From assembly GCA_016182605.1 (NCBI GenBank), contig JACPGE010000065.1, positions 1-36,334 on the forward strand: DNA of 36,334 nucleotides, in the 5' to 3' direction. Under the pieces are notes generated by a model. That model ran no database searches and was not told the origin of the DNA. It was given only the letters and a program-made list of their open reading frames with translations. Shown here piece after piece: positions 4,410-27,716 of the stretch (its first letter is position 1; each line of letters opens with the position of its first letter). The translations under genes were made by a program, and so were the position numbers. The stretch is from Candidatus Hydrogenedentota bacterium (GTDB taxonomy: Bacteria > Hydrogenedentota > Hydrogenedentia > Hydrogenedentales > JAEUWI01).

Positions 4410-4438
4410 AGTATAGGACAGTTTTCCCCGGAGGGCAA
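4410..4438 (-). promoter_or_regulatory. Probable sigma-70-type promoter of the WD40 kinase gene
   Basis: On the minus strand TTGCCC (4438-4433) is followed after exactly 17 bases by TATACT (4415-4410). The predicted start near 4403 gives a leader of about 30 bases ahead of ATG 4372. It would also exclude the upstream ATG at 4453. Confidence 0.45.
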
Positions 4439-5542: not shown

Positions 5543-7289
<1,747 letters not shown>

Positions 7290-7315
7290 GCTGCAAGCTC
7301 TTACGATGTAATGAC

Positions 7316-7353
7316 AGCGCCGGCCCGGGAAGTTCCCGGGCCGGCGCTTTTTT
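7316..7353 (+). terminator. Rho-independent terminator of groEL
   Basis: A perfect 15-bp GC-rich stem (7316-7330 with 7334-7348), a three-base loop and six T residues (7348-7353). Confidence 0.92.
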
Positions 7354-7369
7354 CTTGCGGGTGCCGTGC

Positions 7370-7876
7370 TCAGAAGCTGCGCTCGAACCAGCCCACGTCC
7401 CAGTAACGGTTGAACTTGAAACCGATCTCCGACATGGTGCCCACAGCGCGGTAGCCAAACTTCTGATGCAGGGAAACCGAAGCGGTATTGGGCAGGGTGA
7501 TGCCCGCGATGGCCCGGTGCACCCCTTCCCCCACGATGGCGTTGAAGAGCACGCTGTAGAGCAGGGTGCCTATGCCCTGGCGCGTGTATTCGCGATCGAC
7601 GTAGACGCTGGTTTCCACGGTGGGCCGGTACGCCGCTTTTTCACGAAAAGGATGGCTGTCCGCGTAGCCCAGCACCGCGCTGCCTTGCACGGCAACCCAC
7701 AATTGATGCGGGCCACGATCGTGAAAGTGGCTGAACCAGGGCCGGCGCGATTCCACCGTAACGGGCTCCACGTCGAACGTGATTGCGGTATGCACGATGT
7801 AATGGTTGTATATCCGTACGATCGCCGCGGCATCCTGCGCGCCCGCCTGCCGCACCGTGACTGTTGCACGACTCAT
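7370..7876 (-). CDS. GNAT-family N-acetyltransferase, phosphinothricin acetyltransferase-like
   Basis: A 168-residue acetyl-CoA-dependent N-acetyltransferase. It starts SRATVTVRQAGAQDAAAIVRIYNHYI. The following ITFDVEPVTVESRRPWF is characteristic of the Pat/Bar/MnaT branch of GNAT enzymes. The acetyl-CoA loop is seen as YTRQGIGTLLYSVL (R/Q-x-x-G-x-G), followed by NTASVSLHQKFGYRAVGTM, the usual GF/GY-containing end. Substrates in this branch include phosphinothricin, methionine sulfone or sulfoximine, and other amino acids, so the true substrate cannot be given. ATG 7876 has GGAGG about 7 bases upstream and fits the family start better than the upstream start at 7921. The gene is convergent with groEL. 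Confidence 0.85.
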   Translation of the reverse strand: MSRATVTVRQAGAQDAAAIVRIYNHYIVHTAITFDVEPVTVESRRPWFSHFHDRGPHQLWVAVQGSAVLGYADSHPFREKAAYRPTVETSVYVDREYTRQGIGTLLYSVLFNAIVGEGVHRAIAGITLPNTASVSLHQKFGYRAVGTMSEIGFKFNRYWDVGWFERSF

Positions 7877-7950
7877 TGCGCCCCTCCTGGAAGATGACAG
7901 TGGCTCCCTTGCGGCCCTCACCTGCCGGTCCCACTGCCCCTACTGTAATG

Positions 7951-7994
7951 AAAAACTCCATCAGACGCAAGACCCGGTGTGCGCCTGATGGAGT
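7951..7994 (-). terminator. Terminator of the SSS symporter gene
   Basis: On the minus strand a 10-bp perfect stem ACTCCATCAG / CTGATGGAGT (7985-7994 with 7955-7964), partly extended inward by GCGC/GCGT pairing, is followed by five T residues. It ends transcription just past the symporter stop at 8012. Confidence 0.87.
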
Positions 7995-8011
7995 GCGGAA
8001 TACGGCGTGCG

Positions 8012-9952: not shown

Positions 9953-10002
9953 GTGAAGCGTTCCCTTTCCCGCAGGCGCACTCGGCCCAGTCCAGCCCGG
10001 GC

Positions 10003-10032
10003 ATGGTAGCCTGCACGTACGGGGTGAAGCAA
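10003..10032 (-). promoter_or_regulatory. Possible promoter of the SSS symporter gene
   Basis: On the minus strand TTGCTT (10032-10027), an 18-base spacer and TACCAT (10008-10003). It lies downstream of the MFS gene terminator and about 50 bases ahead of ATG 9952. It is a modest match. Confidence 0.35.
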
Positions 10033-10080
10033 TGACGGGAAGAACGCCCAGGGCGTGCCAAGGCTGCCGCAGGGCGCATC

Positions 10081-10117
10081 AAAAAAGTACGCGGAGGGTG
10101 CAGGCCTCTCCGCGTAC
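10081..10117 (-). terminator. Terminator of the MFS transporter gene
   Basis: A perfect 10-bp stem GTACGCGGAG / CTCCGCGTAC (10108-10117 with 10087-10096) is followed on the minus strand by six T residues (10086-10081). It separates the MFS gene from the symporter gene. Confidence 0.9.
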
Positions 10118-10140
10118 GAACTGGTCCATGGGTATTGCGG

Positions 10141-11457
10141 CTATTCCGGCAGGGGTTTGCCCTTCGTTTCCGGCGCGAACGGCAAGATGAAGAGCCCCAG
10201 AATGAAGACGACAGAAATGACGGTGGCTGCCCAGGGAATACCGTAGATCGCCGCCAGGTAGCCGAATGCCGCAGGGCCGCTGATGGCGATGTAACGCGCC
10301 ACGTTGTAGCAGATTCCGGTGCCCGTTGCGCGCAGGCGCGTGGGGAAGAGTTCGGGGAAGTAGACGGCATAGCCGCCAAAGAGCGACGAGGTGGCAAAGC
10401 CCATGACGGGGAAGAGCACAAAGGCCATCGTGAGCGAGTTTACCGCGTGAAAGGTGAAGGGCACCACAAAGGCGCACGCGATGAAGCTGCACATGAACGC
10501 CTTCTTGCGCCCGATGCGCTGCGCCAGCATGGCCCAGCCCAGCATACCGAAGAAGGCGCCGAAATTCTGCGCCATGACGCTTGCACTGATGAGCATCTCG
10601 GTGCGCTGCGCGAGTTCCGGTTTGGCTTCGGGATTGATCACGCTCTTCAACAGATCGGGGGAGAAGGTGCCGATACCCCAGAAACCGATCACGCCAATGG
10701 CCGCCAGACCCACCCCCACAAGCATATTGCGCCGCAGCGGGGCCTCTTTCCAAAGCTGGGTGATGGCCCCCAACTGAATCTGCCCCTGGGCCGCCTTGTC
10801 CCGTTCATGCTTCCACATTTCCGGTTCTTTTACGATAATGCGCACGACGAAGGCCATGAGTGCCGGCGCGAGCCCGATGAAGAACATGATCCGCCAGCGC
10901 CCGGGATCCGGATTGAGGTAGGCGACAGTGAGCCCGATGGCCCCTGCCATAATGTTACCCAGCGCGCTGCACGCCTGCATGATCCCGAGTGCGGCCGCCC
11001 GCGCGTGGGCGGGAAAGACCTCCGCCACGAGGGAGGCGCCCGCCGCGAATTCTCCGCCGATGCCCAGGCCGGTCATGAAGCGGTAGGCCGCGAAATCGTA
11101 GACGCTGGTTGCCGTGCCGCTCAGGCCCGTGAAGACCGCGTAAATCAGCACGGTAATGGCCATGGTGGTGGTGCGGCCCATGCGGTCGCCCACGATGCCA
11201 AAGAAGAGCCCCCCGGTTGCCCAGCCAAAAATGAAAATGGCCTGCACAATGCCCGACATCTGCTTTACGGCCGCCGGATCCGCCGGCACACCGGGCAGAC
11301 TCATCAAATCGGTGAGTGCTGGATTGCGGGCAAGCACATAGATCCACTGGTCCATCGTGTCGAAGAGCCAGCCACAGGCGGCCACTGCGAGGACAATATA
11401 GTGATAGCGGGTAAGTCCTTCGTTCCATTTTTTGGGCGCGGCGATAGCGGTAGACAC
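10141..11457 (-). CDS. Major facilitator superfamily transporter
   Basis: A 438-residue, roughly 12-helix inner-membrane transporter. The loop 2-3 signature is visible as GDRMGRTTTMAITVL and its second-half counterpart as QRIGRKKAFMCSF. The segment RFMTGLGIGGEFAAGASLVAEVFPAHARA matches sugar/organic-acid transporters such as the sialate and aromatic acid-H+ symporter groups. The GTG at 11457 is preferred as start because AGGAG lies 9 bases upstream. An ATG at 11541 would add 28 residues rich in Arg and Pro with no homologous feel. The substrate is unknown. The gene is divergent from the thioesterase gene and has its own terminator. Confidence 0.87.
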   Translation of the reverse strand: MSTAIAAPKKWNEGLTRYHYIVLAVAACGWLFDTMDQWIYVLARNPALTDLMSLPGVPADPAAVKQMSGIVQAIFIFGWATGGLFFGIVGDRMGRTTTMAITVLIYAVFTGLSGTATSVYDFAAYRFMTGLGIGGEFAAGASLVAEVFPAHARAAALGIMQACSALGNIMAGAIGLTVAYLNPDPGRWRIMFFIGLAPALMAFVVRIIVKEPEMWKHERDKAAQGQIQLGAITQLWKEAPLRRNMLVGVGLAAIGVIGFWGIGTFSPDLLKSVINPEAKPELAQRTEMLISASVMAQNFGAFFGMLGWAMLAQRIGRKKAFMCSFIACAFVVPFTFHAVNSLTMAFVLFPVMGFATSSLFGGYAVYFPELFPTRLRATGTGICYNVARYIAISGPAAFGYLAAIYGIPWAATVISVVFILGLFILPFAPETKGKPLPE

Positions 11458-13221: not shown

Positions 13222-15975
13222 ATGAAACACGCAGTATCGATCCTCGTTACGCTCACGCTGGCCGGCTCTCTGGCCGGCTGTCCCTGGTTTCCCTTTATAC
13301 CCGTAACGCCGCACGAGTTTTTGAGCGCGGACACGGGCAACCGGAATTTTGGCGCCCTGCCGGGAACGGTGGATGACGCCACCGGCGCGGAGGGCGAGGA
13401 ATCGCCCGGGGGCGATTCCGCCAGCCGGGAGGTGGTAGAGCCGGACGTGGTGCGGCGCGTGGGGAACACGCTCTATATATTGAATCAGCACCGGGGCCTG
13501 CTCATTGTCGATCTGGACTCGCTGACGCTTGTGGGCCAGGCGCCCACCTATGGCTACCCGCGCGACCTCTATGTGGATGGCGATCGGGCCTATGTGATCG
13601 TGGGCCAGGTGCAGGACTTTGCGGTGCTCGACGCGGCGGCAGTCTATAGCGCGCAATCGCGCCTGTATACGGTGGATATCTCGGAACCGGCGCACCCCTC
13701 GGTGCAGGGTGAATTCGAAATTGAGGGCGATCTGGTGGACAGCCGGCTCGTGGGCGAGGTGCTCTATGCTGTGAGCGCCTCGTACAATTGGTACAACGGC
13801 GGCGGTGTGGCGGAGAAGCAACAGGGCGCCGAGTCGTGGATCACCAGCGTGAACCTGGCCGATCCCGGCAATGCGGCGGTGGTGGACACCCTGAAATTTT
13901 CAGGCTACGGCACGGTGATCCATGCAACCTCGACGGGGCTCTACGTGGCGGCGCCCGACTGGGAAACGAACACCACGCAGATAACCAGCATCGACATCAG
14001 CGATGCGGGCGGCGCCATGGCCACGGGGGGCTCGGCGACCGTGCCGGGGCACGTGGCGGATCGCTTCAAGATGGATGTATTTGAGGGTGTGTTGCGCGTG
14101 GCGTCGAACACCTCCTGGCCGCAGCGCGATGTCTATGTGAGCACGATCGGTGTCACCGACCCGTTCGCACTGGTGCCGCTGGGGCAGACCCTGATAGAGA
14201 ATGCCGCGGGCGAGACACTCTTTGCGACGCGCTTTGACGGGGACCGCGCCTACCTCGTGACTTTCCTGCGCATCGATCCGCTTTTCGTGATCGATCTCTC
14301 CGATCCCGCCGCGCCGCTGGTGGCGGGTGAATTGGAGGTGCCCGGCTTCTCCACGCACATAGAGCCCCGCGGCGACCGCCTGATCGCCCTGGGGGTCGAC
14401 GACACGGCCGGGGGCAACCGCGTGAAGGTGAGCCTGTACGACGTGGCCGATCCCGCGAATCCGCTGGAGCTGGACACGGCGAGTTTTGGCGAGTCGTGGA
14501 GCTGGTCGAGCGCCTATGACGACGTGAAGGCCTTTACGGTGCTCGACGATCGGTTGCTGGTGCCCGTGAGTGGCTGGGACCCGCTGACCTACCAGAGCTT
14601 TGAGCGGTTGCAACTGATCGATTATGACAACGACAGCCTGACGGTGCGCGGCTATGCCAGCCTGCAGGGGCGCGCGCTTCGCTCGTTGGAGTATGGGGAT
14701 CGGCTCTACGCGGTGACGCCCGAACAGGTGGTGCGCCTCGACGCGAGCAATCCCGACGCCCCGGTGGAAACCGGCGCGCTAACACTGGCCGAGTACCTGG
14801 TGGACTATCTGGAATTGCCGCTAGGTGCGGGTGTGGAGGTTGTTTCGAACTTCTCCCAACAGCAGACCCTCGTGCGTACGGTCGATGCGAATGGCACCCC
14901 GTTGGACGAGGTCGCCGTGGAGGGCGAGAACTTTGTGTCGGCCCATGTGGCGGGCGATCGGATCGCCGTGGTCCACAATGGCTGGGACGAGAAAGGCTTC
15001 TACCGCGTCGCGATAATCGATGCAAGCGATCCCGCGGCGTTGGACGTGCGCGCGAACTTGCGCGTGGATGTGGACCCGTTCTGGGGCGGCTATTGGTACT
15101 ACTACGACATCGGTCTGGGCGGTGCGGTGCCCGTGGCGGAAGATGCGCTCGTGGCCTACCCGTGGTGGGGCGGCGCAGCGCAGGACAACGCCGTGGTGGC
15201 CGGGAACACGCTGGTGCTGCGTTGTACTTCGCAGCAGTACGACGCGGTGATTGGCGAAGAGACACCGGCGCAGGGCCTGGCCCTGATCGATCTGGAAAGT
15301 GCCGCGTGGTCCGCCACGCTTGGCCTCGGCTACGATCAAGTCAACACCGTTGCAGCGGTGGACGGCACGGTGTATCTGGGCACGAAGGAAACCGCGGGCC
15401 AGGATATCCTTGGCCGCGGGATATGCGCCCACTATGTGCATGAACTCGATCTTGCGGCGCGCTCTGTGGCGCGCGAAGCCAATGTGCCGGGCACGTGGGT
15501 GCAATACGATCCCGCGGGCGAGGTGCTCGTGCTCGACGATTATCAGTATGACGGCCTGTCTGGTCTTTCGCGCACCTTGCATACGGTCTCCTGGACGGAT
15601 GCGGGGGTGACTCCGCTGGACAGCCTGGATCTGGCGTCCAGTTATGGCAGCGTGACCGCCGCGGGCACTTCGATCTACGTCGATTCCTATGAGAACGGTT
15701 ACAGTCTGCGGCGCATCGGCGTGGCGGGCAATGGCACGCTCAGCGTGGGCGCCTCGCTGCCGCTGGGCAATGTCTGGTCCTACGTGATCGGCGCGCGGGA
15801 TGAAACCGTGTTTCTCGTGCTGGGCGGGCGGGCTATCGCGAACTATGACTTCAGCGGCGAGCCTGTGGCGAATTATACCGAGCCGGTGATGAGTTCGCCC
15901 TTGCGGCTGCGCTTTGGCGCGGAAGCGGCCCACGCCCCGCTGGGCTACAGTGGCCGGGTGATACTGCCCTATTAG
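13222..15975 (+). CDS. Secreted lipoprotein with beta-propeller domain (PF09826-like)
   Basis: A 917-residue exported protein. The N-terminus MKHAVSILVTLTLAGSLAGC is a lipoprotein signal peptide with lipobox LAGC (Cys20). After a low-complexity acidic linker, the mature part holds repeated short blade-like units such as VVRRVGNTLYILNQHRGLLIVDLDS, GYPRDLYVDGDRAYVIVGQ and GDRAYLVTFLRIDPLFVIDLSDPAAPLVAGELEVPGFSTHIEPRGDRLIALGVDD. This pattern matches the beta-propeller family often labelled 'Beta_propel' (PF09826). No catalytic motif is seen. A scaffold or binding role on the cell surface or in the periplasm is likely, but the ligand is unknown. The gene stands alone under a strong promoter at 13101-13129. 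Confidence 0.82.
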   Translation: MKHAVSILVTLTLAGSLAGCPWFPFIPVTPHEFLSADTGNRNFGALPGTVDDATGAEGEESPGGDSASREVVEPDVVRRVGNTLYILNQHRGLLIVDLDSLTLVGQAPTYGYPRDLYVDGDRAYVIVGQVQDFAVLDAAAVYSAQSRLYTVDISEPAHPSVQGEFEIEGDLVDSRLVGEVLYAVSASYNWYNGGGVAEKQQGAESWITSVNLADPGNAAVVDTLKFSGYGTVIHATSTGLYVAAPDWETNTTQITSIDISDAGGAMATGGSATVPGHVADRFKMDVFEGVLRVASNTSWPQRDVYVSTIGVTDPFALVPLGQTLIENAAGETLFATRFDGDRAYLVTFLRIDPLFVIDLSDPAAPLVAGELEVPGFSTHIEPRGDRLIALGVDDTAGGNRVKVSLYDVADPANPLELDTASFGESWSWSSAYDDVKAFTVLDDRLLVPVSGWDPLTYQSFERLQLIDYDNDSLTVRGYASLQGRALRSLEYGDRLYAVTPEQVVRLDASNPDAPVETGALTLAEYLVDYLELPLGAGVEVVSNFSQQQTLVRTVDANGTPLDEVAVEGENFVSAHVAGDRIAVVHNGWDEKGFYRVAIIDASDPAALDVRANLRVDVDPFWGGYWYYYDIGLGGAVPVAEDALVAYPWWGGAAQDNAVVAGNTLVLRCTSQQYDAVIGEETPAQGLALIDLESAAWSATLGLGYDQVNTVAAVDGTVYLGTKETAGQDILGRGICAHYVHELDLAARSVAREANVPGTWVQYDPAGEVLVLDDYQYDGLSGLSRTLHTVSWTDAGVTPLDSLDLASSYGSVTAAGTSIYVDSYENGYSLRRIGVAGNGTLSVGASLPLGNVWSYVIGARDETVFLVLGGRAIANYDFSGEPVANYTEPVMSSPLRLRFGAEAAHAPLGYSGRVILPY

Positions 15976-16494
15976 TCGCGGAGCCGGAAAAAGACCAGCT
16001 TCGAGCACCAAGGGGACTGTCCGTTCCGAGTTTCACGAGGAAAATGGACTGTCCAAAGCGGGGCTTACTATTGCAGTCTCACCCCAATCACGCTGCTCGG
16101 CGAGCAGCGTGCTACCATTTAGGCGCGCCACCCAAGTAGGCCTTCGCTCGCCGAGCGTAGGCATTCCGCTTCGAAGCACCCGCCTGAACCCAATCAACCA
16201 GGCAGATAGATTTGAGAGCCACATCCGAACTCGATGCCACGCCAAAAGTTTGCGCCATTCGGGACGGGCCCCATCAAAATCACGGTCGTGGCGTGCCCGA
16301 AGACTCCGTTTTAAGCGCGTCGGGGCAATTTTCCTTTTGAGCCCGCTTCCAGTAGAATACCAGCTTCGATTTCCATATGATCGAGGGGAGTGTCCCTTGG
16401 GGACATAGCAGTAGGAGCGGCATGGTGCCCTGTGCCGATCCAGACTGTGCGGATATTGTCCCGCATGGCCAAAACGAAGCTGGGAGGATGCGCG
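15976..16494. other. Intergenic region rich in short inverted repeats
   Basis: About 520 bp with no convincing gene. It holds a perfect 10-bp hairpin (CACGCTGCTC / GAGCAGCGTG, 16089-16111), a 6-bp hairpin (CGCTCG / CGAGCG, 16145-16157) and TGTCCC-TTG-GGGACA (16391-16405). Two GGACTGTCC-containing stretches lie near 16013-16021 and 16043-16051. None has a T-run. They look like REP-type or other dispersed intergenic repeats rather than terminators. No clear promoter for the downstream operon was found. Confidence 0.55.
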
Positions 16495-18168
16495 GTGCTG
16501 CAAGGCTATCTTGTCGTGGAGAAAGATGGCCGCAGAGTGCCCATTTTCAGTGAATTGACCGTGGGCCGCACGCAAGACAGCGGGCTGGTCATCGAGGATA
16601 CGGCCGCATCCCGGCGGCACGTGGAGATCAAGCAGAACGGCGGCCGCATGCTCTGGCGGGATTTGGGCAGCACCAATGGCACCATGATCAATGGGTCGCG
16701 CATGCTTGCCGGCGAATTGAAGGATGGCGATCGCATCCAGATCGGCGAAACGGTGTTGAGCGTGCACCTGGAGACGGCGGAGCGGGATTCCTCGCAGAAG
16801 AAGCCCGATTCCAGGCTCTTCTCGGAGACCATCTTGAATCTTTCGGGCGAGGTGGAGGCCCAGTCTGGGGAATCCGACAAGGCGACGGCGCTGCTGGAGG
16901 CGGTGTATCAGGTGGTGAACGATATTGCCGACAACGACGATCCCGGCACGTTGATGCATCGTATTTTGGAGACGACGCTCCGCGCTATCAGCGGCCAGCG
17001 CGGCGCGATTTTTCTTTCCAACGAAGGGGGCGAACTGGAGCCGCTGCCGGCCTGTTGCGTGGCCTCGGATGGCGCGGGCGGATTGAGCCCAGCCGCACCC
17101 ATGGCTTTTCAGGTGAGCAGCACCGTCACCCAGCGGGTGCTGCGCCACGGCGAGAGCGTGCTTTTTCAGGACAGCGACGCCGATTCCGAATTCAATGCGT
17201 CGGCAAGCATCATGTCGTTGCAGCTTCGCTCCATTTTATGCGTGCCTTTGCGCGCCAAGGACAAGATTCTCGGCCTGCTCTACATCGATTCCAACCGCGA
17301 CGATCAGAAGTACAATCACGATCATCTCCTGCTTGCCGCGGCCGTGGGCAACAGCGCCGGGATCGCGCTGGAAAACGCGCGCATGCACCGGCAGATGCTG
17401 GACAAGCAGCGTATCGAACAGGAGATCGAAACCGCCTGGACCATCCAGGAGGGCTTCCTGATCAAGGACTGGCCCAACAGCGATCCGCGCTATGCCGTGT
17501 ATGGGGAGACGCGGCCGGCAAAAACCGTGGGCGGCGACTTTTATGATGTGGTGCAGCCGGCGCCTGACGTGGTGGGCCTGCTCATCGGCGATGTGAGCGG
17601 CAAAGGGGTGCCCGCGGCACTGACCATGGCCCAACTGCTCGCAGAATTCCGGCTCTTTGCACGGGACAGCATCTCCCCGGCCACCGTCTTGAAGCGGCTC
17701 AATGAGAACCTGGCGCGGCGCAGCCGGCGCGGACTCTTCTGCACGCTCTCCTATCTCACGCTTGATTTGAAAACCGGCGCGCTGACCTGCGCAAACGCGG
17801 GGCACTCGCCGCTGCTGATTATTGCGCGCGAGGGCACATCGTACTTTTGCGAGGCCTCGGGGCCGCCCGCCGGTATATTGCCGGACGGGCCCTGGCACGA
17901 CGAAGGCGCCGTATTGAATCCGGGGGAAAGCCTCCTGCTGTACACCGATGGTATCGTAGAGGCGCGGAGCATGACGACACGGGTGCATTCGCACGAAGCC
18001 GAGCCGGTGGAGTTTGAGTCTTCCGGTTTGTCTGAAGCGGCGAAGCCCTGCTACGGGAGGCCGCCCCTTGAATTGATTGCCGCGATCAACGCTCAGGTTA
18101 AGCGTTTTTGCGCCCCCGCACAGCCCCATGACGACTGCACGATGATCGCCCTGAGGTATACGCCATGA
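16495..18168 (+). CDS. FHA-GAF-PP2C (SpoIIE/RsbU-type) protein phosphatase
   Basis: A 557-residue cytoplasmic signalling protein and the first gene of an eight-gene operon. The FHA domain (about 5-95) has VGR, SRRH and GSTNGT and should bind phosphothreonine. A GAF sensor domain (about 135-295) ends in SILCVPLRAKDKILGLLYID. A helix links to a SpoIIE-type PP2C domain (about 345-555) with metal-binding aspartates in GGDFYD (D348), GDVSGKG (D366), YTDG (D485) and HDDCTMI. Such phosphatases dephosphorylate STAS anti-anti-sigma factors. GTG 16495 is chosen because GGGAGG lies 7 bases upstream and the FHA fold begins at once; ATG 16465 is possible but has a poor ribosome site. Its stop overlaps the next start (ATGA). 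Confidence 0.9.
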   Translation: MLQGYLVVEKDGRRVPIFSELTVGRTQDSGLVIEDTAASRRHVEIKQNGGRMLWRDLGSTNGTMINGSRMLAGELKDGDRIQIGETVLSVHLETAERDSSQKKPDSRLFSETILNLSGEVEAQSGESDKATALLEAVYQVVNDIADNDDPGTLMHRILETTLRAISGQRGAIFLSNEGGELEPLPACCVASDGAGGLSPAAPMAFQVSSTVTQRVLRHGESVLFQDSDADSEFNASASIMSLQLRSILCVPLRAKDKILGLLYIDSNRDDQKYNHDHLLLAAAVGNSAGIALENARMHRQMLDKQRIEQEIETAWTIQEGFLIKDWPNSDPRYAVYGETRPAKTVGGDFYDVVQPAPDVVGLLIGDVSGKGVPAALTMAQLLAEFRLFARDSISPATVLKRLNENLARRSRRGLFCTLSYLTLDLKTGALTCANAGHSPLLIIAREGTSYFCEASGPPAGILPDGPWHDEGAVLNPGESLLLYTDGIVEARSMTTRVHSHEAEPVEFESSGLSEAAKPCYGRPPLELIAAINAQVKRFCAPAQPHDDCTMIALRYTP

Positions 18169-18611
18169 CGCCTGTTGACATCCGGATGGAAGTCCGCTCG
18201 GAGCCGCGCCTGCTGCAATCGATCCGCAGTCTGGTGCGGTGCTATGTCTCGGACCGCGGCTTCTCGCGGGACAAGACCGACGAGGTGGTGCTTGCCGTGG
18301 ACGAGGCGTGCACCAACGCGATTCGCCACGCCTATCAGGGCGACAAGGACAAGGCGCTTCATCTGCACATCCACACCAATTCCTCGTGGATGGAGTTTCA
18401 GTTGATTGACGAGGGCAAGACGGCGCCCGCCGATCGCGTCCAGCCCAAATCGGCGGAAGTAATCGATGCGGAAGCCATGACGCCCGGGGGGCTGGGCATG
18501 GCACTGATCTACCAGGTTTTCGATGAAGTGGCGTTCAGTCCCGGCAGCCCCGCGGGCAACATCATCACCATGCGGCTGCGGCTGCCCACCCCAACCGAGG
18601 AAACGACCTAA
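18165..18611 (+). CDS. RsbW/SpoIIAB-like anti-sigma factor-type serine kinase (HATPase)
   Basis: A 148-residue GHKL ATPase-fold protein. The N-box is DEACTNAIRHAYQ (E47, N51), the G1 box IDEGK (D82, G84) and the G2 box PGGLGMALIYQVFDEVAF (about 107-122). These are the hallmarks of SpoIIAB/RsbW-type kinases, which phosphorylate a serine on a STAS partner and usually also bind a sigma factor. No sigma factor gene is present. The gene overlaps the phosphatase gene by four bases and the STAS gene by one base. This strongly implies that all three form one partner-switching module. The G1 box is DEGKT rather than the usual DxGxG, a small deviation. Confidence 0.88.
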   Translation: MTPVDIRMEVRSEPRLLQSIRSLVRCYVSDRGFSRDKTDEVVLAVDEACTNAIRHAYQGDKDKALHLHIHTNSSWMEFQLIDEGKTAPADRVQPKSAEVIDAEAMTPGGLGMALIYQVFDEVAFSPGSPAGNIITMRLRLPTPTEETT

Positions 18612-18928
18612 TGGCACTCGAACTGAATCTGACAGAGCAGCATGGCGAACATGTAATCGTGGCCTCGGGCGAAGTCGACCTTTACTCGTCGCCCGCCTTG
18701 CGCGACGCCATTCTGAAGGCGGTTCCGAAGACGGCCGGCAAGGTTGCGGTCGATCTGCGCGCCGTGGTGTACATGGATTCCTCCGGGGTGGCGACGTTGG
18801 TGGAGGGCTTGAAGGCGGCCGGTGCCAAGCAGAAGACCTTTGTGCTGCTGGCGCCCTCGCACGCGGTGATGAAGGTCCTGCAACTGTCCCGGCTCGATTC
18901 CGTGTTCACTATCGTTGAGGCGCTCTAG
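18611..18928 (+). CDS. STAS-domain protein (anti-anti-sigma / MlaB-like)
   Basis: A 105-residue single STAS domain. The phosphorylation loop is YMDSSGVATLVEG. Serines 57 and 58 align with the SpoIIAA site, where Ser58 is the residue phosphorylated by SpoIIAB. Two readings are possible and not exclusive. By its upstream neighbours it is a SpoIIAA/RsbV-type anti-anti-sigma factor. By its downstream neighbours it occupies the place of MlaB, the STAS subunit that binds the MlaF ATPase. It starts in the stop of the kinase gene (TAATG) and ends three bases before the MlaE-like gene, so it bridges the two modules. Confidence 0.9.
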   Translation: MALELNLTEQHGEHVIVASGEVDLYSSPALRDAILKAVPKTAGKVAVDLRAVVYMDSSGVATLVEGLKAAGAKQKTFVLLAPSHAVMKVLQLSRLDSVFTIVEAL

Positions 18929-18931
18929 GGC

Positions 18932-19717
18932 ATGACCTACCTGCTCGGCTATACAGGGCGCTCGACGCTGAACCTGCTCTACGCAGCGGCGACCGTCTGT
19001 GTGTTGATGGTCGACACGGTGAACTGGACCTTCATCCAGCCCCTGCGCGGCCGCGGCATCCGCATGCGCAGCGCCGTGGAGCATTTCGTGGAGTTCGGCG
19101 TGCGCTCCATGCCTATCGTGGGGCTCATCTGTTTTCTCATTGGGGTGATCATGGCGCTGAACGCCGCAGGCACCCTGGCCACCTGGGGCGCGACCCGGTA
19201 CATCGCCAATCTCGTCGGCGTGTCTTCCCTGCGCGAACTCGCGCCGTTGATGACCGCCATCCTCATCACGGGCCGCAGCGGCTCGGCGATCACCGCGGAG
19301 ATCGGCACCATGAAGGTAGCCGAAGAAATCGACGCCCTCAACGTGATGGGGCTCAATCCCACCAAGTTCCTCGTGGTGCCCAAGTTCCTTGCCATGCTCT
19401 GCGCCGTCCCTTGCGCAACGGTCCTCAGCATGCTCATCATGATCTTCGGCGGGTACTGCGTCTCCGTCTACTACGTGGGCGTCGATTCCGGCATCTATAT
19501 CGATCAGACGCTTGAAGCCCTGGAAATGAAGGATTTCGTCACCGGCATGGTGAAGAGCGTTTTCTTCGCCGTCGTGATATGCTGGGTCGGCGTCTTTCGC
19601 GGCTTCCAGGTGGAGGGCGGCGCCGAGGGCGTGGGACGCCAGACCACCTCTTCCGTGGTAACCTCCATTATGTTCATTATTTTTGTCGACCTGGTCTGGA
19701 CCGTACTTTTTTATTGA
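18932..19717 (+). CDS. MlaE-family (YrbE) phospholipid ABC transporter permease
   Basis: A 261-residue inner-membrane permease, close to E. coli MlaE (260). An N-terminal amphipathic stretch is followed by about five hydrophobic helices. The segment LRELAPLMTAILITGRSGSAITAEIGTMKVAEEIDALNVMGLNPTKFLVVPKFLAM is the family's core signature, including the EEIDAL coupling region. The protein should move phospholipids or other hydrophobic molecules to or from the inner membrane with the ATPase and MCE subunits encoded next. The gene starts three bases after the STAS stop and ends next to the ATPase start. Confidence 0.95.
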   Translation: MTYLLGYTGRSTLNLLYAAATVCVLMVDTVNWTFIQPLRGRGIRMRSAVEHFVEFGVRSMPIVGLICFLIGVIMALNAAGTLATWGATRYIANLVGVSSLRELAPLMTAILITGRSGSAITAEIGTMKVAEEIDALNVMGLNPTKFLVVPKFLAMLCAVPCATVLSMLIMIFGGYCVSVYYVGVDSGIYIDQTLEALEMKDFVTGMVKSVFFAVVICWVGVFRGFQVEGGAEGVGRQTTSSVVTSIMFIIFVDLVWTVLFY

Positions 19718-19726
19718 GTGCCCTTT

Positions 19727-20551
19727 ATGACACAAGCAGCGACAGCACAGCCCGAGCCCCCGAAAGCGGATGACTACATCATCCAGGTGCGCGATCTCGT
19801 GGTGAAGTATGGCGAGCGCACGGTGCTGGACGGTATCAACCTCGATGTGAAGCGCGGCGAAGTCTTCGTCATCCTTGGCGGCAGCGGCTGCGGCAAGAGC
19901 ACGCTGCTGCGCAACCTGGTGGGGCTGATGCGGCCGCATTCCGGCACCATCCTGATCGATGGCAAAGACTTTACCGCCATGAACGACGAAGAGCGGATAG
20001 AGATCCGGCGCCGCCTCGGCATGTGCTTCCAGGGCTCTGCTCTTTTCAATTCCATGACGATCGGGGACAACGTGGCCCTGCCTCTGCGCGAGCACACCCG
20101 GCTCGAAGCCTCCACCATCGACATCATGACCAAGATCAAGCTGGAACTGGTGGGCCTGGGCGGTTTTGACGAGTATATGCCCTCGCAGCTCAGCGGAGGC
20201 ATGAAGAAGCGCGCCGGGCTGGCGCGGGCCATGGCCATGGATCCCGATATCATCTTTTATGACGAGCCCTCGGCCGGTCTGGATCCCATCGTGGCCGCCG
20301 GTCTGGACAGCCTCATACGCAAGATGCAGCATACCTTCAACCTGACGAGCGTCGTCGTGACGCATGAGATGGAAAGCGTGAAGCTCATCGCAGACCGGGT
20401 GGTCATGCTGCTCAAGGGGCGCGTGGTCGGTCTGGGCACCCTGGACGAGTTGCGCCAGAACGACCACCCTTTTGTACAACAGTTTTTTGCCCGCGAACCC
20501 GACGACGAGTCCACGGGCAACGCGAATTACCTGGAGTCCCTCACGGCCTGA
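19727..20551 (+). CDS. MlaF-like ABC transporter ATP-binding protein
   Basis: A 274-residue cytoplasmic ATPase. Walker A is GGSGCGKST (51-59), the Q-loop lies in MCFQGSALF, the signature is LSGGMKKRAGLARA (from 155), Walker B with catalytic Glu is IIFYDEPSAGLD (175-186) and the H-loop is VTHEME (H213). The sequence GMKKRAGLARAMAMDPDIIFYDEPSAGLDPI is typical of the MlaF/Ttg2A branch. ATG 19727 is used. A GTG at 19718 abuts the MlaE stop and would add three residues. In E. coli MlaB contacts this subunit, so the STAS protein upstream is a plausible regulator of this ATPase. Confidence 0.95.
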   Translation: MTQAATAQPEPPKADDYIIQVRDLVVKYGERTVLDGINLDVKRGEVFVILGGSGCGKSTLLRNLVGLMRPHSGTILIDGKDFTAMNDEERIEIRRRLGMCFQGSALFNSMTIGDNVALPLREHTRLEASTIDIMTKIKLELVGLGGFDEYMPSQLSGGMKKRAGLARAMAMDPDIIFYDEPSAGLDPIVAAGLDSLIRKMQHTFNLTSVVVTHEMESVKLIADRVVMLLKGRVVGLGTLDELRQNDHPFVQQFFAREPDDESTGNANYLESLTA

Positions 20552-20593
20552 TCCGGGCTCTGGCCCGGCACAACTTGTGGAGAAGTAAGCGGA

Positions 20594-21835
20594 ATGGCCG
20601 GTTCGAAACATGATTTCACCGCGACGGAGATCAAGGCGGGGCTGCTTGTCATCAGCAGCTTCCTTGTTGCCGCCGTCTTTGTCGCCGCCGTGCTGGGCAT
20701 GCGCCCCCCCGGTGAGAAGAAGGTGCTCTACGCCAAGTTCACCAACACCATCGGGCTCGACATCAATGCTCCGGTGCGCTTCGGCGGTTACCCGGTGGGC
20801 GTTGTCTCCGGGATTGTGCCCGACCCCGAAGATCACTCGCTCATCCGGCTGCGCGTGGAAGTCGCGCCGAATACACCGGTGAACGAGGAGAGCATTGCCA
20901 CGGTGGAACAGACCACCCTCACCGCGCCCAAGCACCTGGAAATCACCACCGGCACCGCGGAGGCCCCGCTCCTGGCCGAGGAAGGCGTGATAGACACGGT
21001 TTCGAAAGGCTACGGCTTCATCAATCTGCCCGACCTGACGGAAGTCGTGGATGGCAGCGGCGATCTGCTCGCGGATCTGCGCGATCTCCTCGGCGTGAAG
21101 GAGGCCAAGCAGGCTGAGGAGGCGGGTGGCGAAGAATTCGGCAACGTGGAGCGCGTCATCAGCGACGTGCGCCGCTTGCTCGGCATCCAGGAGGCGGAGA
21201 AGGCTGAGACGGAATCGGGCGAGGAATTCCCGAGCATCACCGCGCTCAGCAAGAACATTCAGGATCTGCTGGGCGTAGAGGAGGTGCAGGCCGAGGAAGC
21301 CCAGGGCGCCGAGGAGCTGGCCTCGGTTGCGAAGATCACCGGCGACGTGCGCGATCTGATTGGCGTGGAAGAAGCCAAGAAGAAGGAAGCCGGCGGCGGC
21401 GAGGGCCTGACCGAACTGACCGACATCACCCATAGTGTGGACGATTTGGTGGACGATCTGGGCGGTCAGATCGACAAGCTCATCACGGATCTGGAACCGA
21501 TGAAGGATTCGGTGCAGTCCACGCTGGACGAGGCCAAGGATCTGCTCGCCGACAACCGGGAAAACATCGATCGCACCCTGAAGAGCACGGCCGATATTGC
21601 CGAGGCCCTGCAAAAGCGGGTGGAAGAACTGAGCGAGAATCTGAACGCGACCCTGGACAACGTGGAAGGACTCACCGACGAGGCCAAGGCCGTGATCCAG
21701 GCCAAAGGCCCCGCGCTGGAAGAGGCCATTGGCGATCTGGGGGTCACCGTGCGCAGCCTGAACTCGCTGCTGGAAGAACTGAAACGCCATCCCCAGTCCG
21801 TGATTTGGGGCAAACCCGAAGAAGGCCGCAACTGA
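20594..21835 (+). CDS. MCE (MlaD-like) lipid transport substrate-binding protein with internal repeats
   Basis: A 413-residue protein with one N-terminal transmembrane helix (about 14-35) and a single MCE domain (about 44-120) beginning VLYAKFTNTIGLDINAPVRFGGYPVGVVSGI. Hexamers of such domains form a hydrophobic tunnel in the periplasm. After a linker come four tandem 30-residue repeats (residues 160-279) with core DLLGVEEA, then a long coiled coil (about 285-395) with repeated LxExLxDN character. The repeats are acidic and not something I know from MlaD. They could lengthen a periplasmic needle towards the outer membrane. GGAGA lies 10 bases before ATG 20594. It is the fourth transport gene of the operon. 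Confidence 0.93.
   Translation: MAGSKHDFTATEIKAGLLVISSFLVAAVFVAAVLGMRPPGEKKVLYAKFTNTIGLDINAPVRFGGYPVGVVSGIVPDPEDHSLIRLRVEVAPNTPVNEESIATVEQTTLTAPKHLEITTGTAEAPLLAEEGVIDTVSKGYGFINLPDLTEVVDGSGDLLADLRDLLGVKEAKQAEEAGGEEFGNVERVISDVRRLLGIQEAEKAETESGEEFPSITALSKNIQDLLGVEEVQAEEAQGAEELASVAKITGDVRDLIGVEEAKKKEAGGGEGLTELTDITHSVDDLVDDLGGQIDKLITDLEPMKDSVQSTLDEAKDLLADNRENIDRTLKSTADIAEALQKRVEELSENLNATLDNVEGLTDEAKAVIQAKGPALEEAIGDLGVTVRSLNSLLEELKRHPQSVIWGKPEEGRN
21071..21430 (+). repeat. Four tandem 90-bp repeats inside the MCE gene
   Basis: Units start at residues 160, 190, 220 and 250. Their cores are DLRDLLGVKEAK, DVRRLLGIQEAE, NIQDLLGVEEVQ and DVRDLIGVEEAK. Each is followed by an Ala/Gly/Glu-rich stretch and a short hydrophobic turn. 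The period is exactly 30 residues in all four units, and a fifth partial unit (HSVDDLVDDL) leads into the coiled coil. Confidence 0.85.
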
Positions 21836-21876
21836 GGGTGGCCGCATGCCGGCCCAATAGAAGGACATTTCGATTC

Positions 21877-22422
21877 ATGTACAACCGCATCGCACTCTGT
21901 GTGGCCCTCTGCGCCCTCGCCGGATGTGCCTCCACGCCCCAGCGATTCTTCACGCTGGACATGGCGCCCTCGGCGCAACGGACCGGCGTCAATATCGAGA
22001 TCCAGCACATCCGCGTGGCCGACCCGCTCTTGGGCAAACAGTTGCTCATCCGGAAGAGCCCGACGGAACTGGAGTATTATGCCGTGGGCCAGTGGGCCTC
22101 CCAGTTGGACGAGCTGCTGACGGAGAAGTTCTACGCGGAGTTTGGTCCGCGCACGGCCGGGACACCGGCACTTCATTTGAGCGGGTGGCTGCAGGCCTTC
22201 GAGCAGATCGATCTCCCCGGCGGCGGCGCCGAAGCCCACATCAAACTCACGCTCGTCTTCCGCGACCCCGTGCGCTCCCGCACGGAGCCGCCCTTGCTCG
22301 AGAAGACCTACGAACTGCGGGCGCCCGCCCCGGCGGCGGAAGCGGCTGCGGTTGCAGAGACCCTGTCGCGCGGTGTAGAAGCACTTGCAGAACAGATTGT
22401 GAACGACGCCCGATCCCTTTAA
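21877..22422 (+). CDS. ABC-type transport auxiliary lipoprotein (PqiC/DUF330-like)
   Basis: A 181-residue lipoprotein. MYNRIALCVALCALAGC is a short signal peptide with lipobox LAGC (Cys17). The mature start RFFTLDMAPSAQR and the region GVNIEIQHIRVADPLLGKQLLIRKSPTELEYYAVGQWASQLDELLTEKF match the PqiC/LetC-type auxiliary lipoproteins of MCE systems (PF03886). In E. coli PqiC sits on the inner face of the outer membrane and links an MCE needle to it. This supports a trans-envelope lipid route for the operon. ATG 21877 has AAGGA 11 bases upstream. A longer frame from 21805 would overlap the MCE gene and lose the signal peptide at the N-terminus. Confidence 0.85.
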   Translation: MYNRIALCVALCALAGCASTPQRFFTLDMAPSAQRTGVNIEIQHIRVADPLLGKQLLIRKSPTELEYYAVGQWASQLDELLTEKFYAEFGPRTAGTPALHLSGWLQAFEQIDLPGGGAEAHIKLTLVFRDPVRSRTEPPLLEKTYELRAPAPAAEAAAVAETLSRGVEALAEQIVNDARSL

Positions 22423-22445
22423 CCCGCCCCGGCGCGGAGGTACCC

Positions 22446-23249
22446 ATGGCCCAGGCCGAGATACGCGATGATCATCTCACCGATTACGAGCGGGCGATCT
22501 GTTACTACACCCTGCCCAAACTCAACAACCCCGTGACTTTCGGGTTGATCGTCGCCTATGCGGTTTGCCTCTTCGAAGCCCTCGGCGTTCTTGTGGTTGG
22601 GGCGCTGCGCAACAACAGCACCTGGATTGCCGCCGGGCTGATCGCCACGGCCGCCATCGTGCTCTTCGGAATCGTGGTGTTTCTGGTGCGGGCCTTTCTC
22701 ACGGAGTTGCGGCGCCGCAGGGCCCTGGCCGAAGCGCAGGGCGTTCCCGACCACTCCGATTCTTTTCAGGACTTCGATTTGCCCGATCCTTTTGCCAGCC
22801 ATATTCTCTTGAAACATCCGGCTTCCGCGCCGCAGCACCTCTTCGCCTGCACCGAGGACGATGCCACCATCCGCTATTTCGTGGAAAGTGTGCCTGGCGA
22901 AAACTGGTGGCGCATTAAGTCGGTGCAGGATACCGAAGTCTGCCGGGTGCGCAGCCTGCTCGGTCCCCGGCCCTTTGCCTTCAATTCGGGGCGCCCCCGG
23001 AAATTGGGGGTCTACCTGGAGGACCGGGAACTCGCAACGATTGAGCGTCCCTTTGGATTCGCCCTTCCCTCGGTGGAGATTGTCCACCGGGATCCGGCCA
23101 TTCCGCGCTACGCCATACGCAATTCGGGCATCTATGTGGATGATCGGCTGGTGGGACGGCTCTACGAGTTGCGGAACAGCTACTATCTGGATGTGGAGAA
23201 CGCCCATTTTCATCCCGGCGTGCTTGCGTATTACGCGACACTTACTTAA
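22446..23249 (+). CDS. Two-helix membrane protein with possible tubby/scramblase-like (LURP-one) domain
   Basis: A 267-residue protein not firmly recognised. Residues 30-53 and 60-83 are hydrophobic helices joined by a short loop, followed by an Arg-rich LRRRRAL stretch that should be cytoplasmic. The remainder (about 120-265) is beta-rich with paired units such as WWRIKSVQDTEVCRVRSLLGPRPFAF and KLGVYLEDRELATIERPFGFALPSVEIV. This rhythm recalls LURP-one/phospholipid-scramblase (tubby-like) domains, an inference only. GGAGG lies five bases before ATG 22446. The frame can be extended far upstream, but that would overlap the lipoprotein gene. It is the last gene of the lipid transport operon, 23 bases after the lipoprotein gene. 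Confidence 0.75.
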   Translation: MAQAEIRDDHLTDYERAICYYTLPKLNNPVTFGLIVAYAVCLFEALGVLVVGALRNNSTWIAAGLIATAAIVLFGIVVFLVRAFLTELRRRRALAEAQGVPDHSDSFQDFDLPDPFASHILLKHPASAPQHLFACTEDDATIRYFVESVPGENWWRIKSVQDTEVCRVRSLLGPRPFAFNSGRPRKLGVYLEDRELATIERPFGFALPSVEIVHRDPAIPRYAIRNSGIYVDDRLVGRLYELRNSYYLDVENAHFHPGVLAYYATLT

Positions 23250-23282: not shown

Positions 23283-23348
23283 TCGGGCAGCTCTACGACT
23301 TGGCGTCCAACCGCGGCGCGTGGAGTGTGCCGCTTCCCGGAGGAACCC

Positions 23349-23951
23349 ATGCCCCGTGTCACCCGTCTGCTGGCCTGCCTGATTGCCGCTCCCCTCTTAA
23401 TCGCCCATGCTCCAGCCGCCCGCGCCGGGTTGGACCTCGAAGAGGGCCATTGGCGCGTGGAACTGGCCACCACCTACGGCATCCACTCCGGCACGACGAA
23501 CCGTTCTGGCAATGTGTTAACGACGGGTACCGTAGAATACGAGATTCCCGCGACTCCCCGGACGACCCTCGGGCTGCGCCTCATGCCGCTGTTCCTGTAT
23601 ACGCAGGACGATACGAGCATTAAAGATTCGGACGATTGGTACCGCCTGGACGAGGAAGATGCCAGCGACACGGTCTGGGGCGGGGGTCTGGGCTTGACCG
23701 GCCGTATCTATCAAGTGAAGGACGAGTACCGGGGCTGGTATGGCGAGGCCGAGGGGCTGGCCGTAGTGCATGACAACAAGATCATCGGGAACAGCAGCAA
23801 CTTCAATTTTCTGATAGGGCTGGGTGTGGGCTACAAATTCAAGAGCCACTGGCACACCGTGCTGAAGTACGAGCATATTTCCAACAGCAGCATTGGCGCG
23901 CGCAATGCCGGCGCGAACAGCCTGGGCCTGGGGCTTGGATACTCGTTCTGA
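23349..23951 (+). CDS. PagL-like lipid A 3-O-deacylase / acyloxyacyl hydrolase family protein
   Basis: A 200-residue predicted outer-membrane beta-barrel. A signal peptide with cleavage after AARA (about residue 26) is followed by amphipathic strands and a C-terminal aromatic residue (LGLGLGYSF). The segment FLIGLGVGYKFKSHWHTVLKYEHISNSSIGARNAGANSLGLGLGYSF fits the PagL family (PF09411). Its EHxSN motif provides the catalytic His (H176) and Ser (S178). The third catalytic residue is not evident to me. PagL removes the 3-O acyl chain of lipid A at the outer membrane. GGAGGA lies four bases before ATG 23349. Its place right after an Mla/Pqi-type operon suggests a shared role in outer-membrane lipid balance. 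Confidence 0.7.
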   Translation: MPRVTRLLACLIAAPLLIAHAPAARAGLDLEEGHWRVELATTYGIHSGTTNRSGNVLTTGTVEYEIPATPRTTLGLRLMPLFLYTQDDTSIKDSDDWYRLDEEDASDTVWGGGLGLTGRIYQVKDEYRGWYGEAEGLAVVHDNKIIGNSSNFNFLIGLGVGYKFKSHWHTVLKYEHISNSSIGARNAGANSLGLGLGYSF

Positions 23952-25651: not shown

Positions 25652-26581
25652 ATGAACCGTAAAGGTTTCACGCTTATCGAGCTGTTGGTCGTGATCGCGA
25701 TCATCGGCATTCTGGCTGCCATCCTATTGCCCGCACTGGCGCGCGCCCGTGAAGCGGCACGCCGCGCAAGCTGCCAGAACAACCTGAAGCAATTCGGCAT
25801 CGTATTCAAGATGTATGCGGGCGAATCCAAGGGCGAAAAGTTCCCGACCAACCACACGTGGGGTTGCGACGGGGATACCGACGGCGATTTCACGCTCAAT
25901 CTGCTTTCCGTCTATCCCGAGTATCTCAATGACGCGAACCTGACGCTGTGCCCCTCGGGCGCAGAAGGCACGGTCGAAGAGAACTACGACGGTGCGAATG
26001 ACTTGGCTCAGGTGTGGGACGGCTCGGCTTTCGTAAGCACGGCCGGCAACCCGAACACCGAGTTCTATGGTTGCGAAGGCGACTCCTCGGCCCAGAGCTA
26101 TCTGTACCTCGGCTGGGTGATTGACGCTCCGGACGTGATCGACTATGAAGGTCCGATTCCGGGCTTCATTCCGGGAACGGATGACTTTGGTTCGATCGTT
26201 GCGGCCTGGCCGGGCGGCACGGCGGCCTTGGGCGTGTTCACGGTGCTGGACGCGATGATTAACTACGAGGATATCGACGGTACGGAATACAACACGGATT
26301 CGGAGTACTCCGAGGATGTGGTTGGCGTTCCGGTCCGCATCATGCGCACACGGGAAGGCATTGAGCGCTTCTTCATCACGGACATCAACAATCCGGCGGG
26401 TTCTGCGCAGGCGCAGAGCACGATTCCGCTCATGTATGACTTCTTCAGCGCGCAGTCGGACGAGTACAATCACGTTCCCGGCGGCTCGAACGTGCTGTGG
26501 ATGGATGGTCACGTTACCTTCGTCCGTTACCCGGGCGAATACCCGCTCACCCCGCTTATCGGCGTGCTGAACGGCCTGTAA
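25652..26581 (+). CDS. DUF1559 (H-X9-DG type) prepilin-like protein, copy 1
   Basis: A 309-residue protein starting [47 protein letters not shown]. This is a prepilin leader with cleavage G5/F6, followed by the DUF1559 opening. The C-terminus has [22 protein letters not shown], the H-X9-DG signature of this large family, which is abundant in Planctomycetota and relatives. These proteins are exported and presumed to form pilus-like or secretion pseudopilus structures; the true function is unknown. GGAGGAA precedes ATG 25652. It is followed by a strong terminator at 26607-26645. It is a close paralogue of the next gene and has the same length. Confidence 0.92.
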
Positions 26582-26606
26582 GACTCCATTCGCGAATGGT
26601 AGATTC

Positions 26607-26645
26607 GGCGGGCCCCTCTCCGGAAGGAGGCGGGCCCGCCTTTTT
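26607..26645 (+). terminator. Terminator of DUF1559 copy 1
   Basis: A perfect 9-bp outer stem GGCGGGCCC / GGGCCCGCC (26607-26615, 26632-26640) with additional inner pairing (CTCC with GGAG), then five T residues. Confidence 0.9.
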
Positions 26646-26707
26646 CATTCGTGCTCTTGGTGGCGCCGGTGAAGAAGAGGTATGGCAGGTGGCGGGTTTA
26701 GCAGTGC

Positions 26708-26732
26708 ATGCGGGGCATGTGGAGCCCCGCAT
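26708..26732 (+). other. 5'-UTR hairpin of the second DUF1559 gene
   Basis: A perfect 9-bp stem ATGCGGGGC / GCCCCGCAT with a 7-base loop, about 54 bases before ATG 26787. Its position matches that of the hairpin ahead of copy 1, though the sequence differs. Confidence 0.45.
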
Positions 26733-26786
26733 GAGATCCTATCAATATCATCCCAACGGGGCAACCATCTCTGGAGGACTTATCCC

Positions 26787-27716
26787 ATGAAACGCAAAGG
26801 TTTCACACTTATCGAGCTGCTGGTCGTGATTGCGATCATCGGCATTCTGGCCGCCATTCTGCTGCCTGCGCTGGCGCGGGCCCGTGAGGCGGCGCGGCGC
26901 GCGAGCTGCCAGAACAACCTGAAGCAATTCGGCATCGTGCTCAAGATGTACTCGGGCGAATCCAAGGGCGAAAAATATCCGACCAACTACACCTGGGGTT
27001 GTGACGGGGATCCCAAGGGCGACTTCACCGTAAATTTGCTTTCGATCTATCCCGAGTATCTGAGCGACGTCAATGTGACGCTGTGCCCCTCCCAGAGCAC
27101 CGCGACTTCGGTGGAAGAGGCGTATGAAGACGCGAATAACCTGCCCCAAGTGTGGGACGGCTCGGGCTTTGTGTCCACGGCGGGCAATCCCAACACGGAG
27201 TTTTATCCTTGTGAAGGGGATTCCGGCGCCCAGAGCTACACGTATGTGGGCTGGGTGATGGACGCCCCGGGCATGCGCTACGCCGGCCCGGTCTCCAACA
27301 TTGCAGGCCAGGGCGAAGGCCCGCTTATCAACGCAATTCTGACCGAAGTGCCGGATGGCGCCGCCGTAGTGGACGGGTTCCTGTTCATTGTGAAGTGCTT
27401 CGACCAGGACGACGACCTCACGACGGACTCGGAATTCAACGAGACCGGCACATTGAGTGGCGCAACCATCAAGATTTTGCGCACGCGCGAAGGCATCGAG
27501 CGCTTCTACATCACGGATATCAACAATCCGGCGGGTTCGGCGCAAGCGCAGAGCACGATCCCGATCATGTGGGACTTCTTCAGCCAGGAAGTGGATGAAT
27601 TCAACCACGTTCCGGGCGGCTCGAATGTACTGTGGATGGATGGCCACGTGTCGTTCATCAAGTACCCCGGCGAATATCCCGTAACCGAACTTATCGGCGC
27701 GATCAACGGCAATTAG
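26787..27716 (+). CDS. DUF1559 (H-X9-DG type) prepilin-like protein, copy 2
   Basis: A 309-residue tandem paralogue of the preceding gene. It starts [65 protein letters not shown] and ends with [22 protein letters not shown]. The two proteins agree best at the N-terminus and in the last hundred residues ([26 protein letters not shown]). They diverge in the middle, the likely exposed part. ATG 26787 has GGAGGA nine bases upstream. A longer frame from 26682 lacks a signal. Terminators on both sides mean it needs its own promoter; TTGGTG-18-TATGGC at 26657-26686 is a weak candidate. Confidence 0.92.

Follow-up and report, generated by a model that had tools for sequence, protein, structure and literature searches.

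A partner-switching phosphatase, kinase and STAS gene set joined to an Mla-type lipid transporter operon in a Hydrogenedentota bacterium: a candidate phosphorylation switch for an ABC transporter

The window analyzed here is the whole of a 36,334-nucleotide stretch of DNA from Candidatus Hydrogenedentota bacterium (assembly GCA_016182605.1, contig JACPGE010000065.1). At 16495-23249 on the plus strand, it contains eight co-directional genes that encode, in this order, a phosphatase, a kinase, a STAS protein, MlaE, MlaF, an MCE protein, a PqiC-like lipoprotein and a two-helix membrane protein, that is, a regulatory trio followed by a lipid transporter. The features of this locus, with the matches that identify them, are as follows:

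16495..18168, plus strand: FHA-GAF-PP2C phosphatase of the SpoIIE/RsbU type (Pfam SpoIIE/PP2C 8e-45, FHA 2e-16, GAF 5e-14)
18165..18611, plus strand: serine kinase of the RsbW/SpoIIAB type, 148 amino acids (Pfam HATPase_c_2 5e-26; PDB match to Bacillus subtilis RsbW 9e-13)
18611..18928, plus strand: STAS protein, 105 amino acids, candidate kinase substrate and MlaF-binding subunit (Pfam STAS_2 8e-17, STAS 2e-15)
18779..18781, plus strand: Ser57 codon TCC of the STAS gene, predicted phosphorylation site (from the sequence and from HHalign to Thr52 of Escherichia coli MlaB)
18932..19717, plus strand: MlaE permease, 261 amino acids (Pfam MlaE 3e-74)
19718..20551, plus strand: MlaF ATPase, 277 amino acids, with a GTG start (an ATG at 19727 is possible; ABC_tran 3e-33; NCBIfam MlaF is the top match, 7e-67)
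20486..20548, plus strand: C-terminal extension of MlaF, ending NANYLESLTA, counterpart of the E. coli 'handshake' (Tyr261, Leu265, Leu266)
20594..21835, plus strand: MCE (MlaD-like) protein, 413 amino acids, with an N-terminal helix and a long coiled coil (Pfam MlaD/MCE 3.5e-11)
21877..22422, plus strand: PqiC-like lipoprotein, 181 amino acids, lipobox LAGC (Pfam ABC_trans_aux 2.5e-12)
22446..23249, plus strand: two-helix membrane protein with a C-terminal domain, 267 amino acids (no Pfam or NCBIfam family)

The genes are tightly packed. The phosphatase stop and the kinase ATG overlap at 18165-18168 (ATGA), base 18611 is common to the kinase stop and the STAS ATG, the STAS stop (18928) is separated by 3 nucleotides from the MlaE ATG (18932), and the MlaE stop abuts the MlaF GTG (19717/19718); with the first four junctions overlapping or nearly abutting, the arrangement is that of translationally coupled genes. 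For the phosphatase, a GTG start at 16495 behind GGGAGG (16482-16487) was preferred over an in-frame upstream ATG at 16465. No match to the sigma-70 promoter consensus turned up within the operon, a negative that carries little weight in an organism of this type. The gene calls and Pfam matches agree with the original prediction, made from the sequence alone, that the genes of the trio overlap and that the STAS stop lies three bases before MlaE, with the transporter genes downstream; the DSSG motif that it had placed in the STAS protein is read as well, with Ser57 directly followed by the Ser58 codon at 18782-18784. The top PDB matches of MlaF are solved MlaF-type chains. Homologs of the two-helix protein occupy the same place in 20 other loci of the same order and in none of 80 loci from other groups.

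The residues on which a partner switch depends are conserved throughout the homologous loci. In the kinase, the Glu and Asn of the N-box are invariant and DxG and GLG show no or almost no variation (101 loci), and the metal-binding Asp positions of the PP2C domain are 99-100% conserved (80 linked loci). All 98 linked loci keep the phospho-site serine of the STAS protein, 95 of them within DSSG; the other three, from Auribacterota, read ISSAG and retain the serine. Among the STAS proteins found in its own genome, the window protein is the only one with DSSG, the other sites being VSYMG, ISSNG, LSSAV and LSSTV. This genome also encodes a second RsbW-like kinase whose gene overlaps a STAS gene (L201, G000:C10, 8502-9333); it was considered as a second copy of the module and rejected because its STAS protein has the site YLSSAV and no DSSG.

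In the AlphaFold model of the window STAS protein (predicted local distance difference test score, pLDDT, of 95.8), Ser57 caps the start of helix 2 (residues 57-72). Among solved structures, TM1442, RsbV and SpoIIAA have the nearest folds, some of them as chains of the RsbV/RsbW and SpoIIAA/SpoIIAB complexes (template modeling, TM, scores by query mostly 0.82-0.91). Profile matches in PDB follow the same trend, with RsbV (1e-19) and SpoIIAA (8e-19) ahead of the weaker matches to MlaB of Pseudomonas aeruginosa (4e-6) and E. coli (2e-4); Acinetobacter baumannii MlaB is also among these matches. Direct HHalign comparison with MlaB yields a probability of 95% (E-values of 1e-8 to 3e-8) and places MlaB Thr52 on Ser57.

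To assess the linkage between the trio and the transporter, we searched 100 relatives for the kinase and the same genomes for the MlaE family. Nearly all strong same-order kinase matches (36 of 39) lie within 2.5 kb of an MlaE gene and are co-directional with it; the three unlinked ones comprise a contig break (G050), a trio without a transporter (G029) and a diverged phosphatase-kinase pair (G051). Conversely, 36 of the 40 non-fusion MlaE genes share a contig with the kinase, the exceptions being three that belong to another MlaE clade (G021, G026, G047) and the one at the contig break in G050. The annotated loci of relatives keep the order FHA-GAF-PP2C, kinase, STAS, MlaE, MlaF, MCE, PqiC. 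In the second phylum surveyed, that of G072 (77 genomes), 29 of the 36 kinases lie within 2.5 kb of MlaE. When named genomes were scanned with an alignment of diverse kinases, 80 loci emerged, of which 62 carry the transporter; because the queries were kinases from Mla loci, this fraction describes the given kinase subfamily rather than all RsbW-like proteins. The STAS gene is present in the examined stretch in 59 of these 62 loci, and in the remaining 3 its position falls past the contig end. The 62 loci span about a dozen phyla and groups, namely KSB1, Calditrichota, Nitrospirota, Nitrospinota, Thermodesulfobacteriota and Tectimicrobiota as well as Abyssobacteria, Auribacterota, Omnitrophota, Acidobacteriota, Phycisphaerae and Verrucomicrobia. 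Most of the linked loci have overlapping or abutting genes for kinase and STAS (median gap of 4 nucleotides), and in the great majority of linked loci, the STAS gene is directly beside mlaE. Separation of trio and transporter in most relatives had been set beforehand as an outcome that would refute the original prediction, and these surveys do not show it. Conservation of this arrangement over about a dozen phyla suggests a pump that is switched on and off by phosphorylation.

Two further kinds of loci were encountered in the survey. Ten loci from Bacteroidota, Ignavibacteria, Rhodothermia and Calditrichia (L155, L161, L163, L164, L173, L181, L184, L185, L187 and L190) carry PP2C, STAS and kinase genes without MlaE, several of them with a second PP2C protein, and appear to represent a related switch. 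In L206 (G072:C23:90892-91522), the MlaE of a linked locus is split over two overlapping frames, through either a frameshift or a sequencing error, and other members of this lineage have lost the transporter.

The C-terminus of MlaF differs between loci with and without the kinase. The motif [YF]xxx[LIVM] behind the last conserved QF[FL] of MlaF is present in 80 of 86 kinase-linked proteins vs 1 of 17 kinase-free ones (Fisher test, 5e-13, a nominal value given that the rows are related); among the six kinase-linked misses, L094 and L111 carry the motif upstream of the anchor. The window MlaF has the tail NYLESLTA, in which YLESL is a Tyr/Leu extension of the kind that packs against MlaB in E. 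coli. By comparison, the paralogous MlaF from the same genome, part of a kinase-free system that has a STAS-MlaE fusion, has the tail ERRPDEFIAQRNIV and lacks the motif. This paralog is encoded in a second, kinase-free MCE transporter locus (L003, G000:C62:74000-90000, 6595-10164) that consists of a STAS-MlaE fusion, MlaF, an MCE protein and a PqiC-like lipoprotein. The contrast in the motif is a sign that a free, MlaB-like STAS protein may bind the MlaF proteins of the kinase-linked loci.

In a phylogenetic tree of MlaE (117 rows), the co-directional set falls within one 92-row clade (support 100/99) that includes the window MlaE; 90 rows of this clade are kinase-linked, and it also holds the fused STAS-MlaE paralogs. 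In Desulfobacteraceae, the operon has the order mlaF-mlaE-mlaD-STAS-mlaC (with MlaC confirmed), which is close to the mlaFEDCB order of E. coli, with the genes for GAF-PP2C and kinase oriented divergently to it; the MlaE proteins of this divergent set group with E. coli MlaE (100/95), although the latter is a long branch, so that its exact place is less certain than the separation of the clades. Judged from the tree, this is independent ARRANGEMENTS: two distinct MlaE clades contain Mla transporters to which the kinase-phosphatase pair is tied, and the association thus arose or moved at least twice. Other variants include a Verrucomicrobia locus in which the phosphatase-kinase pair follows the transporter, and G096, where phosphatase and kinase share one open frame.

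In the Nitrospinota-type genomes that lost the transporter, the regulators are left incomplete. G132 keeps the phosphatase and the kinase but has lost both the STAS gene and the whole transporter, and in G159, where the transporter is also gone, the phosphatase and STAS genes are decayed. The loss of STAS along with the transporter fits the notion of STAS as a transporter subunit.

Taken together, these observations are best explained by a partner-switching module that has an ABC lipid transporter as its output instead of a sigma factor, a reading to which we assign a probability of about 0.7. We infer the STAS-MlaF binding, the phosphorylation of Ser57, its effect and the sign of this effect, and likewise the input signals and which way the lipid flows. 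Two studies of E. coli Mla have proposed phosphorylation of MlaB at Thr52, leaving open the kinase and the regulation (PMC5016091, PMC7367683). The T52E substitution weakens MlaB-MlaF binding (PMC7367683), whereas T52A abolishes the ATPase activity of a complex that still assembles; the authors of the latter work propose in vivo phosphorylation of MlaB (PMC5016091). Given these effects and the presence of a kinase and a phosphatase at the window locus, the simplest model is that the dephosphorylated STAS protein holds MlaF active, phosphorylation of Ser57 releases it, and the PP2C phosphatase restores the active state. Under this model, unphosphorylated STAS would bind to the helical subdomain on one MlaF and to the C-terminal 'handshake' on the neighboring one, keeping an active MlaFE(MCE) complex assembled. 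The RsbW-type kinase would phosphorylate Ser57, at the start of helix 2 in the center of the interface, causing STAS to leave MlaF and transport to stop; the kinase may additionally sequester unphosphorylated STAS. The FHA-GAF-PP2C phosphatase would remove the phosphate and restart transport, with a GAF ligand and phosphothreonine peptides bound to FHA as its likely inputs. The MCE tube and the PqiC-like lipoprotein would move lipid between the inner and the outer membrane, as proposed for Brucella Mpc.

Several observations weigh against this model. The fold of the window STAS protein is less similar to MlaB chains (TM 0.63-0.77) than to RsbV and SpoIIAA, and its score against the curated MlaB model NF033618 is 19.1 bits, below the cut-off of 90; because the protein is outside this curated family, it is only by inference that one STAS protein does both jobs, that of kinase substrate and that of MlaF-binding subunit. 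Mean-field coupling analysis of STAS with MlaF or the kinase over 85 loci (effective number of sequences 71, too shallow a set to rely on) gave, amid noise, no more than a weak hint that STAS Lys68 is coupled to both the C-terminal extension and the helical subdomain of MlaF. No phosphatase was detected in cis in 19 of the 98 linked loci, and linkage alone could come from co-regulation. Finally, the Nitrospinota-type genome G125 has only the kinase and STAS genes, with the transporter gone, and G029, a genome rated 100% complete, contains an intact trio (L080, G029:C37, 1508-7190) and no kinase-linked MlaE. The G029 trio is followed by PilZ-like and N-acetylmuramoyl-L-alanine amidase-like genes (identified by eye), and a different target, that is, a re-targeted switch, is possible there.

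The strongest competing explanation, one that we nevertheless consider unlikely, is a classical transcriptional switch. In this view, the kinase would be the anti-sigma factor of a sigma factor whose gene lies elsewhere, with the STAS protein acting as antagonist of the kinase and the transporter being no more than an adjacent regulon member. The affinity of STAS to RsbV/SpoIIAA in both fold and sequence and of the kinase to RsbW, as well as the transporter-free trio of G029, are compatible with this possibility, and a target in trans is conceivable given three weak SigB/F/G-like genes in the same genome (108-136 bits vs a cut-off of 234). All three, however, are on other contigs; a search of the window for a dedicated sigma factor was negative, and none of the window proteins scanned contains a sigma-factor domain, which bears out the original prediction that no sigma factor gene is nearby. 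Also against a transcriptional role are the position of the STAS gene next to mlaE and the STAS-MlaE fusion in the paralog, the joint loss of STAS and transporter in G132, the MlaF C-terminal motif that tracks the kinase-linked loci, and the location of STAS inside the mla operon in Desulfobacteraceae.

Somewhat less likely still is an opposite or bimodal sign of the effect, whereby phosphorylated STAS is activating, or else the kinase docks on MlaF-bound STAS and phosphorylation tunes the ATPase rate rather than assembly. The assembled but inactive T52A complex points in this direction because it implies that the Thr52 hydroxyl does more than mediate binding, and the authors of the 2020 eLife study find the T52A result hard to square with simple phospho-regulation (PMC7367683). 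The weakened binding of the phosphomimetic T52E, as well as the disruption of partner binding by phosphorylation in RsbV/SpoIIAA, argue for the sign adopted in our model.

We regard as highly improbable that the operon combines two independent units, with STAS as a constitutive structural subunit and the kinase and phosphatase acting on something else. Such a separation is in line with the loci that lack a phosphatase in cis and with the E. coli mlaB gene, which has no adjoining kinase, but not with the overlap of the kinase and STAS genes in most linked loci, the near-universal DSSG motif, or the unique DSSG of the window STAS in its genome. Recurrence of the arrangement in dozens of genomes excludes chance linkage, and its conservation across phyla rules out chance assembly, misannotation and local horizontal insertion.

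Beyond the window, we think it somewhat more probable than otherwise that there is a widespread class of MCE transporters gated by reversible serine phosphorylation of an MlaB-like STAS protein through dedicated partner-switching enzymes, such that the movement of phospholipid across the envelope follows cytosolic signals directly and not by transcription. If so, ABC lipid transporters would join the known targets of partner switching, and the Thr52 arrangement of E. coli MlaB would represent a relative, without a kinase, of such a regulated switch on an ABC transporter. Control by phosphorylation has been long suspected and never shown for this pump family; the operon described here offers a dedicated kinase and phosphatase beside an MlaB-like protein, so that three or four small proteins would suffice to address the question in vitro. 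As a rule for reading genomes, many 'anti-sigma factor antagonist' annotations beside MlaE would denote transporter subunits. A full-text literature search for MlaE with SpoIIE, and for MlaB or an MCE protein with partner switching, recovered no report, subscription papers being outside its coverage, and for phosphorylation of MlaB it recovered the two E. coli studies cited above; as far as the literature could be checked, the parts are of known kinds, and the combination and the target are new.

The window contains several other genes outside the operon. A gene for a PagL-like outer-membrane lipid A deacylase (23325-23951) follows on the same strand 75 bases past the operon; homologs were found in four of the stretches from relatives (L052, L053, L056, L062), and it is possibly a functional neighbor. 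Upstream of the operon, a 917-amino acid lipoprotein-like Beta_propel (PF09826) protein is encoded at 13222-15975, without homologs in the fetched stretches of relatives. A 1361-amino acid protein with 15 WD40 repeats is encoded at 368-4453 on the minus strand, and two adjacent, nearly alike genes of the DUF1559/N-methylation pseudopilin type at 25652-27716 probably result from a recent duplication.

Like the RsbU/RsbW/RsbV and SpoIIE/SpoIIAB/SpoIIAA switches of Bacillus, the window locus encodes a PP2C phosphatase, a HATPase_c_2 serine kinase and a DSSG STAS protein, with the catalytic motifs and the phospho-site conserved and with TM scores of 0.82-0.88 between the STAS model and the RsbV and SpoIIAA chains in kinase complexes; unlike these switches, the trio adjoins an ABC lipid transporter, and no sigma factor is encoded alongside. 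The locus shares with E. coli MlaFEDB the MlaE, MlaF and MCE components, a STAS gene in the operon, the C-terminal Tyr/Leu extension of MlaF and the alignment of Ser57 with Thr52, and the Desulfobacteraceae version, which has MlaC, resembles the E. coli system further. In contrast, E. coli mla has no adjoining kinase or phosphatase, and the window operon encodes a PqiC-like lipoprotein and no MlaC (MlaC was not searched genome-wide). In the latter respect, it is similar to the Mla-Pqi chimeric system Mpc of Brucella abortus, which combines an MlaE/MlaF core, a long MCE protein and a PqiC-like lipoprotein, with no MlaC (PMC12436622). The second locus of the same genome has the domain plan of Mpc, including a STAS-MlaE fusion as in MpcE (PMC12436622), whereas STAS in the window is not fused and has a dedicated kinase and phosphatase encoded alongside. 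The SiaABCD system of P. aeruginosa, in which a phosphatase and a kinase together control a small protein whose partner, bound and activated by it, is an enzyme and not a sigma factor, provides a precedent for control of an enzyme-activating protein by such a pair, although its target is the diguanylate cyclase SiaD rather than, as would be the case at the window locus, a transporter (PMC8457831, PMC7647112).

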